A stretch of 64,000 bases of DNA from Chryseobacterium wanjuense. Lineage in GTDB: Bacteria; Bacteroidota; Bacteroidia; Flavobacteriales; Weeksellaceae. Position 1 is the first letter of the stretch, and each line of letters opens with the position of its first letter. The stretch is taken from NCBI RefSeq assembly GCF_900111495.1, contig NZ_FOIU01000004.1, forward strand, positions 124,001 to 188,000. Direction: 5' to 3'. Of this stretch, positions 57,187 to 59,935 are shown one piece after another. The notes beneath the pieces were generated by a model that ran no database searches, was not told the origin of the DNA, and saw only the letters and a program-made list of their open reading frames with translations. Both the position numbers and the translations under genes were made by a program.

Positions 57187-57205
57187 TGTCATGCTGGAAG
57201 CATCT
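57187..57205 (+). repeat. Copy R1 of a 19-bp palindromic repeat
   Basis: TGTCATGCTGGAAGCATCT, differing by one base from the copies that flank the GIY-YIG gene. It lies 55 bases before hutI. Confidence 0.7.
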
Positions 57206-57259: not shown

Positions 57260-58489
57260 ATGAAACTTATAGGCCCCTTCAAGCAAGTCGTAACACTTGC
57301 CAACCTTCCTTTAAGAGGAAAACTTTCTGACGATCAACTTGAAATTATTGCAGATGGAGGAATTTTAGTTGATAACAATACCATTCAAAAAGTCGGAAAT
57401 TTTGAAACATTAAAATCGGAAAATCAAAATATAGAAATCGAATCTATTGAAGGCGAACAAATCGTTCTTCCAGCTTTCGTTGATTCCCACACGCACATCT
57501 GCTTTGGTGGAAACCGGGCAAATGACTTTGCCATGCGCAATGCCGGGAAAACATACCTTGAAATCGCAGAAAGCGGAGGCGGAATCTGGAGTTCCGTTCA
57601 GCATACAAGAAACGCATCGGAAGAAGAATTATTAAAAACGATTTTAAAAAGAATTGATTTTTTAATCGCTTTGGGAATCACAACTATTGAAATAAAAAGC
57701 GGTTACGGTTTAGATGTAGCTAATGAGCTGAAAATGCTTCGAATCATTAAAAAAGCACAGGAACAGACGAAAGCTACTTTGGTTCCGACCTGTCTTTCGG
57801 CACATTTGAAGCCGAGAGATTTTGATGGTAGCAATGAAGAATATTTACAATATATTTTAACTGAAATTTTGCCTAAAGTAAAAAAAGAAAATCTAGCAAA
57901 ACGCGTTGATATTTTCATTGAAAAATCAGCATTTCAGCCGGAAGAAAGTAAGGGTTTTTTGCTTAAAACTAAAGATTTAGGTTTTGAAATTACTGTTCAT
58001 GCAGATCAGTTCACGCCGGGAAGTTCAAGAATTGCTGTGGAAGTGGGAGCGCAATCTGCAGACCATTTGGAAGCAACCATTGATGAGGATATCGAGTTTT
58101 TGGCACAATCAAATACGGTGGCGACGGCTCTTCCGGGGGCGAGTTTAGGATTGGGAGAAAAGTTTACTCCGGCAAGAAAATTATTGGATGCAGGAGCCAT
58201 TTTAGCAATTGCGAGTGACTGGAATCCGGGTTCTGCTCCGATGGGAAATCTCGTTACTCAGGCTTCTATTTTAGCAACATTCGAAAAATTGACTACTGCT
58301 GAAGTTTTAGCGGGAATGACTTTCCGTTCGGCTTTTGCGTTGGGATTGGAAGACAGAGGAAAATTGGAAAATGGGTTGAAGGCGGATTTTGTAACTTTTA
58401 AAACGAATAATTTCCAAAATGTTTTGTATAATCAGGGAAGCTTGAAGGCAGAGCGTGTTTATATTGATGGGAATAAAGTTTTAAAATAA
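57260..58489 (+). CDS. hutI: Imidazolonepropionase
   Basis: Third step of histidine degradation: hydrolyses 4-imidazolone-5-propanoate to formiminoglutamate. The 409-residue protein is of the amidohydrolase type. The metal motif VDSHTHICFGG has H77 and H79; AGKTYLEIAESGGGIWSSV, EIKSGYGLD, TVHADQFTPG and ASDWNPGSAPMGNL follow and are HutI signatures. hutG lies 500 bases downstream, interrupted by a small nuclease gene. hutH and hutU are not in the window. Confidence 0.95.
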   Translation: MKLIGPFKQVVTLANLPLRGKLSDDQLEIIADGGILVDNNTIQKVGNFETLKSENQNIEIESIEGEQIVLPAFVDSHTHICFGGNRANDFAMRNAGKTYLEIAESGGGIWSSVQHTRNASEEELLKTILKRIDFLIALGITTIEIKSGYGLDVANELKMLRIIKKAQEQTKATLVPTCLSAHLKPRDFDGSNEEYLQYILTEILPKVKKENLAKRVDIFIEKSAFQPEESKGFLLKTKDLGFEITVHADQFTPGSSRIAVEVGAQSADHLEATIDEDIEFLAQSNTVATALPGASLGLGEKFTPARKLLDAGAILAIASDWNPGSAPMGNLVTQASILATFEKLTTAEVLAGMTFRSAFALGLEDRGKLENGLKADFVTFKTNNFQNVLYNQGSLKAERVYIDGNKVLK

Positions 58490-58517: not shown

Positions 58518-58583
58518 AGATGCTTTCAGCATGACAAACATTGTGCATAATATACCATACGAATTGTCATGCTGAAAGCATCT
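58518..58583. repeat. Inverted pair R2/R3 of the 19-bp palindromic repeat
   Basis: R2, AGATGCTTTCAGCATGACA (58518-58536), and R3, TGTCATGCTGAAAGCATCT (58565-58583), are exact reverse complements separated by 28 bases. Each is a mini-hairpin (ATGCT-GAA-AGCAT), and the pair can form a larger stem-loop just before the GIY-YIG gene. Confidence 0.85.
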
Positions 58584-58616
58584 GAACATAGAATTTAACA
58601 CAAATGATAAAAAACA

Positions 58617-58937
58617 ATGTTTGAATTAAATGAAGGTATTTATAAATTTTACGTATATATTTTAACCAACAAAAACAGAACAGTTTTATATACAGGCGTT
58701 ACAGGAAATTTACATCAAAGATTAAAGGAACATGTAAATAAAATTAATCCGACTAGTTTTACCGCAAAATATAATACTTGTTTTCTAATTTATTATGAAA
58801 AATTTGGTTGGATACAACAAGCTATAGAAAGAGAAAAAGAGATAAAACTTTTAAAAAGAAACTATAAATTTGAGTTGATAAGAAATGTAAATCCTAATTT
58901 GGAATTTTTAAATCACCTTTTTCAACAAGCCGTTTAG
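58617..58937 (+). CDS. GIY-YIG nuclease domain protein
   Basis: A 106-residue single-domain protein of the GIY-YIG superfamily (UPF0213/YhbQ-like). The GIY part is V13-Y14-I15, the YIG part Y25-T26-G27, the conserved Arg is R35 (LHQRLKEH), and E73 in REKEIKLLKR is the metal-binding Glu, so the active site seems complete. It cuts between hutI and hutG and is bracketed by inverted copies of a palindromic repeat; the last copy overlaps its stop codon. This suggests a small mobile or repeat-linked gene. The cellular role of this group is not well known. Confidence 0.88.
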   Translation: MFELNEGIYKFYVYILTNKNRTVLYTGVTGNLHQRLKEHVNKINPTSFTAKYNTCFLIYYEKFGWIQQAIEREKEIKLLKRNYKFELIRNVNPNLEFLNHLFQQAV

Positions 58938-58977
58938 ATGCTTTGACTACGTCGAACCTAAAGGTTTCAGCATGACA
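58936..58977. repeat. Interrupted copy R4 of the palindromic repeat
   Basis: AGATGCTTT (58936-58944) and TTTCAGCATGACA (58965-58977) together equal repeat R2 with a 20-base insert between. Its first bases form the TAG stop of the GIY-YIG gene. It is inverted relative to R3. Confidence 0.75.
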
Positions 58978-59005: not shown

Positions 59006-59935
59006 ATGAACAACAATATCTGGCAGGGAAGATTAGACGGTGAAGAACTTCTTTACCACAGAATATTTCAGAGAGTAAGAGAAGAAAGTAACTACGATAC
59101 GATTTCAACTAATGATTTCGTTTTACACGGATTTGCAGTAGATGAGGGCGTTAGAAGGAATAAAGGGAGACAGGGTGCAAAAGATGCTCCGGATATCATC
59201 AGGAAAAATATGTCTAATTTTCCGGTGATTCTTCCTGATTTTTCATTGCTTGATTTTGGAAATATCACCTGTGACGACGGAAATTTGGAGGAAACCCAAA
59301 ACAATCTTGCGAAAAATGTTTCTAAAGTTCTGTTGAAAGGCGGAAAGTCGCTGGTTTTAGGAGGAGGGCATGAAGTGACGTATGCTCATTATTTGGGTAT
59401 AAAAACTGCTTTTCCTGAACAGAAAATAGGGATCATCAATATTGATGCTCATTTCGATAACAGACAACCCGAAAATGGAATAGGAGCAAGCTCAGGAACA
59501 GGATTCTGGCAGATCGCGCAGGAAGGTGAAATTAATTCTTTACATATCGGAATTCAAAGAAATTCCAACACCTTGAAATTATTTGATACAGCCCACCAAT
59601 ACGGAATGAAATATATCCTTGCCGATGAGCTTTTCTTTGAAAATTTACCATCAATTTACCAACGGATTGATGAATTGCTGAATAGTGTAGATTACGTCTA
59701 TTTAACGATTTGTATGGATGTTTTTAATGTTTCAATTGCACCGGGAGTTTCAGCTTCTGCATACAATGGGATTTTTGCTGATGCGACATTTATGCATCTT
59801 TACAGGCATATTTTAAAGAATGAAAAACTTTTGGCGCTGGATGTGGCGGAAGTTAATCCTGCTTATGATATCCAGGACAGGACAGCAAGACTGGCGGCAT
59901 GTCTTATGAATGAATGGTTTATGATAATGCCATGA
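59006..59935 (+). CDS. hutG: Formimidoylglutamase
   Basis: Last step of the hut pathway: hydrolyses N-formimidoyl-glutamate to glutamate and formamide. The 309-residue protein is of the arginase/ureohydrolase type. Manganese ligands appear in GGGHEVTYAH, IDAHFDNR and ICMDVFNVSIAPG; the last replaces the more common DxDxxDP. GTG at 58979 would add nine codons but lies in the repeat, so ATG 59006 is chosen. hutI/hutG order is kept despite the insertion of the GIY-YIG gene. Confidence 0.93.
   Translation: MNNNIWQGRLDGEELLYHRIFQRVREESNYDTISTNDFVLHGFAVDEGVRRNKGRQGAKDAPDIIRKNMSNFPVILPDFSLLDFGNITCDDGNLEETQNNLAKNVSKVLLKGGKSLVLGGGHEVTYAHYLGIKTAFPEQKIGIINIDAHFDNRQPENGIGASSGTGFWQIAQEGEINSLHIGIQRNSNTLKLFDTAHQYGMKYILADELFFENLPSIYQRIDELLNSVDYVYLTICMDVFNVSIAPGVSASAYNGIFADATFMHLYRHILKNEKLLALDVAEVNPAYDIQDRTARLAACLMNEWFMIMP

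Follow-up and report, generated by a model that had tools for sequence, protein, structure and literature searches.

The 64,000-nt window of Chryseobacterium wanjuense DNA analyzed here contains a small GIY-YIG nuclease gene that lies between hutI and hutG, as a preliminary description of the region had noticed, with four short palindromes (R1 to R4) in and around the same interval. We infer that hutG begins at an ATG; the open reading frame list has GTG 58979 as its start.

Table 1 Features of the nuclease locus, in window coordinates
Feature	Position	Strand	Basis or remark
GIY-YIG nuclease gene, 106 aa, proposed repeat-dedicated enzyme	58617..58937	+	ORF and Pfam PF01541
hutI, upstream neighbor	57260..58489	+	Pfam amidohydrolase family; name from context and the preliminary description
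hutG, downstream neighbor	59006..59935	+	Pfam arginase family; name from context and the preliminary description
R1, 19-bp palindrome, GGA loop, upstream of hutI	57187..57205	+	
R2, 19-bp palindrome	58518..58536	-	Tag-inward dimer with R3
R3, 19-bp TGTC-tagged palindrome, upstream bracket arm, tag outward	58565..58583	+	
R4, 42-bp long-loop palindrome, downstream bracket arm, tag outward	58936..58977	-	

The nuclease open reading frame matched the Pfam GIY-YIG family with 54.3 bits (cut-off 22.6), and the Pfam search returned no Y1 transposase match at E ≤ 0.001, so the enzyme is of the GIY-YIG type and not an HUH/Y1 tyrosine transposase. The conserved Tyr, Tyr, Arg, His, Glu and Asn of the family correspond to Y14, Y25, R35, H39, E73 and N92, which we take to be the catalytic positions; all six are invariant in the 21 aligned nuclease sequences (alignment A2, made without L164, which has a stop codon), and the site is thus complete, as had been proposed. 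An AlphaFold2 model built from 21 sequences (mean pLDDT 90) predicts a lone GIY-YIG domain. Its nearest solved structure is the UPF0213 protein 1zg2 (sequence E 4.8e-8; Foldseek E 1.7e-4 on the model), followed by weak fold matches to Slx1 chains (Foldseek E 0.015 and above). Elsewhere in this genome (contig C3, 157868-161447), two distant GIY-YIG open reading frames (L032/L033) stand in tandem and adjoin three tRNA-Asp genes; similar tandem GIY-YIG matches with a period near 360 bp occur in two other genomes of the genus, G019 (C1) and G056 (C224).

The preliminary description counted four copies of a 19-bp element at the locus. Three of them, R1, R2 and R3, are indeed 19-bp TGTCATGCTGNAAGCATCT elements of the form TGTC-ATGCT-GNA-AGCAT-CT, with a 5-bp stem and a 3-nt GNA loop; the fourth, R4, is a longer-loop form that shares the same two ends. 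Other details of that account held: R2 and R3 are exact inverted copies of each other, and R4 is inverted relative to R3 and overlaps the nuclease stop codon (58935-58937) by 2 nt. The AT/AT stem base is found in all four palindromes, and the 66-nt span from R2 to R3 is predicted to fold as single-stranded DNA with -20.5 kcal/mol (z -7.2). A search of the window for the 13-bp core with up to two mismatches was unremarkable (5 matches against 2.8 by chance, with 15 of 100 shuffles reaching 5), and an Rfam search of the locus gave no matches up to E 1.

The repeat was also searched for genome-wide, as the preliminary description had advised. The strict pattern TGTCATGCTG-N0-30-AGCATCT found 38 copies in the 4.67-Mb genome and none when the pattern was read backwards, and four of the 38 fall within 1.8 kb at the hutI-hutG locus. 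Longer-loop forms dominate among the genome copies, and the view of the repeat as a simple 19-bp element was rejected. Six palindrome pairs in this genome lie no more than 200 bp apart; all six are tag-inward and four have identical arms, while pairs of the TCC and TGC stem types taken from other genomes are tag-outward. The TGTC tag is present in R1 to R4 and in the 38 genome copies, where the search pattern required it; when it was not required, GTC still preceded the stem in 36 of 46 5-bp GNA hairpins near nuclease genes. The tail in the genus is CT (C 97%, T 95%, n=121).

The paired nature of the element was assessed by comparing the triplet that follows GTCAT with the one preceding the first ATC[TC], the pairing itself not being required by the search. 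Pairing was found in 127 of 152 cases near nucleases of the genus (2.4 expected) and in 98 of 135 near nucleases in named genomes (2.1 expected); as the palindrome copies are related, these cases are not independent. The strongest mutual information also falls on base pairs, namely columns 12-26 (TA 11, CG 9, TG 3) and 17-21 (CG 21, TA 2) among 23 distinct TCT-type sequences, and columns 14-20 (GC 18, AT 5, GT 2), the top pair among 25 distinct TGC-type sequences. GNA triloops are unusually stable in DNA. Here, GNA makes up 178 of the 189 3-nt loops in tagged hairpins, versus 233 of 3122 in untagged ones. On this comparative evidence, the palindromes look as if they were selected as hairpins; a point against this is that single long palindromes folded no better than shuffles (z +1.4 and +0.07). 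Two loci hold tandem direct arrays with one tagged palindrome per unit, with a period of about 230 bp at L269 (G009 C1) and of 142 bp at L277 (G038 C1).

A homologue of the nuclease was detected at E ≤ 1e-3 in 75 of 98 genomes of the same genus. We took 92 loci, 90 from the genus-wide search together with L032 and L033 of this genome (G000); further matches, such as those of G053 and G086, are not among them. By the tree, 80 loci from 54 genomes form a close family and the other 12 are more distant GIY-YIG genes, a split that follows the tree but was drawn after the palindromes had been seen. The 80 close loci were scanned for GTCAT-N3-loop-N3'-ATC within 300 bp of the gene. The preliminary description had asked whether gene copies are flanked by inverted repeats: an outward-tagged pair brackets 61 of the genes, 16 have a palindrome on one side and 3 on neither. 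Both arms carry the same stem triplet at 58 of the 61 bracketed loci (shuffles: mean 19.4, maximum 33), the three with differing arms being L034 (GCT/CCT), L040 and L043 (both CCT/CCC). Outward palindromes reach 12.5 per kb within 50 bp of the 80 genes; their density is 0.16 at 500-900 bp, and reversed palindromes come to 0.25. The 12 more distant GIY-YIG genes serve as a natural negative control: none has a palindrome within 100 bp, and the idea that GIY-YIG genes in general are bracketed was rejected. L152, one of the 12, has palindromes at 111 and 222 bp whose stems differ. The downstream palindrome could be placed at 65 loci, and in 37 of these it directly follows or overlaps the stop codon. 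Decayed nuclease copies exist as well, with L055 lying in three frames and L266 being a two-frame remnant between palindromes.

A comparison of stem type with the nuclease phylogeny showed close agreement. The IQ-TREE tree included 90 of the 92 rows (L055 and L149, shorter than 60 aa, were dropped) and 97 columns, and many of its forks are unresolved. It contains a TGC clade (35 rows, support 100/99), a TCC clade that includes CCT and GCT subclades (22 rows, 100/98), a weakly supported TCT clade (16 rows, 80/44) and a TTC group of 5 rows that is not resolved as a single clade; the window nuclease pairs with that of G040 (100/98). Wherever a row has a palindrome, the stem is that of its own group. 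With the label taken from the upstream stem where two were present, and with the palindrome-less close rows L044, L107 and L112 left unlabeled, the six stem types of 75 labeled rows require 5 changes on the tree, the minimum possible.

Repeat number was likewise coupled to the presence of the matching nuclease. For each stem type we counted repeats less two per nuclease and compared genomes with and without a nuclease of that clade, a few clade labels being set by hand from the tree and nuclease matches beyond the 92 loci (e.g., those of G053 and G086) being absent from the table. Without correction for kinship, the medians were 12.5 versus 4 for TGC (34 and 64 genomes, p=8e-8), 32 versus 8 for TCC (17 and 81, p=1e-7), 30.5 versus 7 for TCT (16 and 82, p=1e-5) and 44 versus 4 for GCT (3 and 95, p=0.002). 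Some off-diagonal pairs also had low p values: TCT repeats with TCC nucleases (6e-4), TCC repeats with TCT nucleases (0.003) and GCT repeats with TGC nucleases (0.03). Among individual genomes, G020 has 70 TCC copies and one weak nuclease match (E 8.8e-8). Short GCT repeats of the GNA form are found in 33 of the 98 genomes, most often in G072 (15), G009 (13), G026 (10) and this genome (9); G072 and G026 thus exceed this genome in short GCT copies, and neither has a GCT-clade nuclease among the 92 loci. G028 has the most TCT-type palindromes of all 98 genomes (113) and the second most of the GCT type (50), yet no nuclease match at E ≤ 1e-3; its enzyme may have been lost, another enzyme may act there, or it is a counterexample. 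Taken together, density, tree and copy number tie the repeats to the nuclease genes, contrary to an even spread of repeats unlinked to any nuclease, which the preliminary description had named as grounds for abandoning its proposal.

The 80 nuclease genes occupy 17 sites when shared flanks on both sides are demanded, and grouping by a match of any flank gives 13 clusters. Inheritance within the genus is thus largely in place, and the sample does not amount to 80 independent cases. At hutI-hutG, where match positions were compared with hutG positions by eye, the listed matches place the nuclease in 3 of 98 genomes (G000, G040 and G009), in the same orientation and bracketed in all three, with the G009 copy in three frames. 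The other situation named in advance as fatal, the same gene at this site in all relatives and no repeat, is thus not what the genomes hold. Empty hutI-hutG sites, about which the preliminary description had asked, do exist: 30 of the 98 hutG loci were read directly, and gaps of 7, 10 and 28 bp were among them. An insertion peculiar to this genome was rejected, as three genomes share the site and both flanks.

The barnase-barstar site is common to 24 TGC units by their flanks, and its gap (L313-L342) may hold a TGC nuclease unit, a metalloprotease-like open reading frame, both, or nearly nothing. Of 30 such loci read, 13 hold a palindrome-to-palindrome unit that starts 1-9 nt past the barnase stop, and 17 are without it; in four of the latter the gap measures 23, 28, 33 and 48 bp, respectively (the 48-bp one with a palindrome remnant), and 13 have the metalloprotease-like frame. 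At the mvaD site, TCC units are forward in G055, G080, G092, G059 and G074 and reversed in G037 and G051, the reversed unit of G037 coming from another TCC subclade; G085 has three TCC palindromes and no nuclease there. No target-site duplication was recognized by eye. Inheritance mostly in place, at 17 sites, and one repeat-rich genome without a detectable nuclease speak against simple mobility.

The bracketing was also looked for beyond the genus. In named genomes, the best 80 of 550 loci have outward palindromes on both sides in 35 cases (23 with the same stem), on one side in 31 and on neither in 14. Same-stem pairs beyond Bacteroidota among these best 80 of 550 come from Oscillospiraceae (3), Woesebacteria, Limnohabitans and Acidobacteria, as given by record titles, where the labels of MAGs may be mistaken. 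Near the gene, reversed palindromes are enriched in this set too, with 2.25 reversed versus 4.6 outward per kb within 50 bp and 3.5 versus 3.6 at 50-100 bp.

Plasmid and phage collections yielded 33 matching records, from which 14 (13 from the plasmid collection and 1 phage) were chosen to span genera. An outward [CT]GTC-tagged pair is present in 8 of the 14, all eight of them Proteobacteria, although the control is weaker here (18 outward hairpins near the gene, compared with 9 reversed ones near it and, farther away, 7 outward and 9 reversed). Shinella, Aeromonas, Rhizobium, Azospirillum and Neorhizobium have [CT]GTC-AT...CCA on both sides, with an AT/AT stem base and a CCA tail. The Neisseria pair has a CTA tail and lies almost 200 bp from the gene amid several other copies, and the Sphingobium and Novosphingobium pairs have an AC or GC stem base instead of AT. 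In Azospirillum lipoferum the unit sits between sufB and sufC, comparable to its place between hutI and hutG here. In Planktothrix, the palindromes on the two sides differ in stem and are some 145 bp from the gene; a single flank carries something in S. meliloti, Spirosoma and R. tumorigenes, and Photobacterium and the phage record have no outward palindrome. On the Planktothrix agardhii plasmid p1 (L344), the GIY-YIG gene stands between a gene for an MmeI-type restriction enzyme and the DISARM gene drmA. Carriage by phages was rejected, with 1 weak match in 50,697 phage records and no palindrome near it. By sequence comparison, the bracketing recurs in Bacteroidota and Proteobacteria, and single records or MAG loci suggest the same for Bacillota, Acidobacteriota, Patescibacteria and, less tightly, Cyanobacteria.

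The bracketing, its orientation, the matching of stem to clade, the covariation within hairpins and the coupling to copy number can all be read from the genomes themselves, and they make a dedicated link between this nuclease and its repeat very probable. We think that the locus probably represents a REP-type system in which a small GIY-YIG nuclease serves as the dedicated enzyme in place of the HUH transposase RAYT. The palindrome has a 5' tag that is unpaired (TGTC/CGTC), then a hairpin, in which the stem starts with AT/AT and continues in a family-specific manner, and a short 3' tail (CT; CCA in several Proteobacteria); each nuclease clade goes with a stem of its own. The enzyme may recognize tag and hairpin as folded single-stranded or cruciform DNA, e.g., during replication, and cut next to the tag, acting on the DNA hairpin much as RAYT does on GTAG REPs. 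Repair or rejoining after the cut could then produce additional palindromes, alone or in pairs, and the two outward-tagged copies that enclose the gene might occasionally allow the whole unit to invert, move or be lost. That the enzyme both cuts and spreads the repeats, the mobilization step, is on balance slightly favored.

Several features would also fit a host enzyme that trims or resolves the hairpins and cruciforms of REPs, in the way that enzymes of the Slx1 type handle branched DNA, does not spread them, and sits amid substrates that also regulate it. The top fold match is to UPF0213 and then, at weak E values of at least 0.015, to Slx1 chains, the gene is mostly inherited in place, and a downstream palindrome at or over the stop codon would suit autoregulation. 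Such a guard should, however, reduce the matching repeats, and genomes with a matching nuclease have more of them; its patchy presence (any homologue at E ≤ 1e-3 in 75 of 98 genomes, and 3 to 34 genomes per clade) and the decayed copies L055 and L266 also fit poorly, and we regard this explanation as unlikely. About equally unlikely is that the palindromes are pre-existing sites, with the nuclease cutting gene-less palindromes and repair copying its gene into them, in the manner of free-standing GIY-YIG homing endonucleases. The TCC units in both orientations at mvaD (the reversed one of G037 being from another subclade), the three nuclease-free TCC palindromes of G085 at that site, and the hutI-hutG and barnase-barstar gaps that are filled in some genomes only would all be expected from homing, but each clade occupies few sites despite many genomes with ten or more cognate palindromes, and homing alone would leave the higher repeat number in genomes with the gene unexplained.

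It is also conceivable, though very improbable, that the association is incidental, with the palindromes being transcription terminators or mRNA stabilizers in intergenic gaps and the nuclease genes merely lying in gaps rich in repeats. REPs are mostly found downstream of genes, according to a survey of these elements (PMC3733652), which agrees with such a role. Against it, palindrome density is about 80-fold lower at 500-900 bp, the 12 other GIY-YIG genes lack a palindrome within 100 bp, and the stem types follow the nuclease tree, on which they need no more changes than the minimum.

Returning to a nuclease dedicated to its repeats, the same family may well, if with some reservation, be the missing dedicated enzyme of the CGTC-type REP superfamily across bacteria, each clade reading and spreading its own tagged hairpin, and thereby a second, independent REP-mobilizing machinery of unrelated fold. 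A dedicated GIY-YIG partner, if true, would answer how CGTC-type REPs arise and would mean that the REP lifestyle originated independently a second time. As every clade comes with its own pair of enzyme and hairpin, specificity swaps are feasible in one tube and the idea is directly testable.

The CGTC-tagged REPs were defined by Di Nocera, De Gregorio and Rocco in 2013 (PMC3733652). As described in the passages considered, they have a CGTC tag (often TGTC or CCTC), an AT/AT stem base, stems of 8-9 bp with a 4-5 nt loop and a CCA tail, occur mainly as head-to-head dimers, and include Neisseria dRS3 (= CGTC-1) and Rickettsia RPE-4/RPE-6. They were catalogued in five phyla and said to "apparently lack a dedicated transposase"; the survey examined transposase genes (section 16), and since none was attached to these REPs, those passages leave their origin open. 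The present repeats resemble them in the unpaired CGTC/TGTC tag, the AT/AT stem base and the spread over several phyla, and the [CT]GTC-AT...CCA elements on both sides of the gene in five proteobacterial relatives are alike as well; dimers occur here too, tag-inward in this genome and tag-outward in the TCC and TGC pairs of others. They differ in that a GIY-YIG gene is bracketed here, where no transposase was reported in those passages. Instead of the 8-9 bp stem, 4-5 nt loop and CCA, the repeats of the window end in CT and show either a stem and loop that are both shorter or a hairpin that is longer and imperfect. Because of these differences in stem, loop length and tail, we call them CGTC-like and not members.

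The preliminary description had suggested an undescribed, repeat-linked mobile unit. The repeat-nuclease link stands; the gene, however, moves little (80 genes at 17 sites), and the repeats are not wholly undescribed, given their likeness to CGTC-tagged REPs in the parts of PMC3733652 considered, so that the GIY-YIG link is the part not found in print. No link between GIY-YIG and repetitive extragenic palindromic sequences was found in the searched literature, which excluded subscription papers and preprints; a set of REP and RAYT papers within it never mentions GIY-YIG. In the parts considered, a 2025 REP survey (PMC12306157) mentions neither nuclease, RAYT nor transposase, and PMC9465073 names both GIY-YIG and REPs by coincidence.

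Among proteins, the single-domain GIY-YIG members of UPF0213 (1zg2, 1ywl) have the same fold and size and give the top sequence and structure match, but the solved members are hypothetical proteins, and the distant single-domain GIY-YIG clade of the same genomes has no palindrome within 100 bp. Slx1 (SLX1-SLX4), the weak second fold match, shares a GIY-YIG domain acting on branched DNA but is a larger host repair enzyme, for which we know of no repeat association. Free-standing GIY-YIG homing endonucleases are likewise small genes with a patchy presence at intergenic sites; unlike them, the gene here is bracketed by dispersed palindromes and is found at several sites that are unrelated to each other, not at a single conserved target gene.

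The GTAG REP/RAYT systems (REPtron, REPIN) are similar in having dispersed tagged hairpins, often as inverted dimers, and an enzyme gene flanked by matching repeats, as far as the passages of PMC3733652 describe them. The likeness to REPs and RAYTs drawn from this one locus extends beyond its own genome, with the nuclease gene flanked by its own repeat on both sides at 61 of the 80 loci of the genus and the two stems being the same at 58. RAYTs, likewise, are inherited vertically and at low copy number. The two systems differ in the enzyme, a GIY-YIG nuclease here versus an HUH/Y1 tyrosine transposase, and in the hairpin it is paired with, which carries a TGTC/CGTC tag in place of GTAG and a stem that begins with AT/AT.
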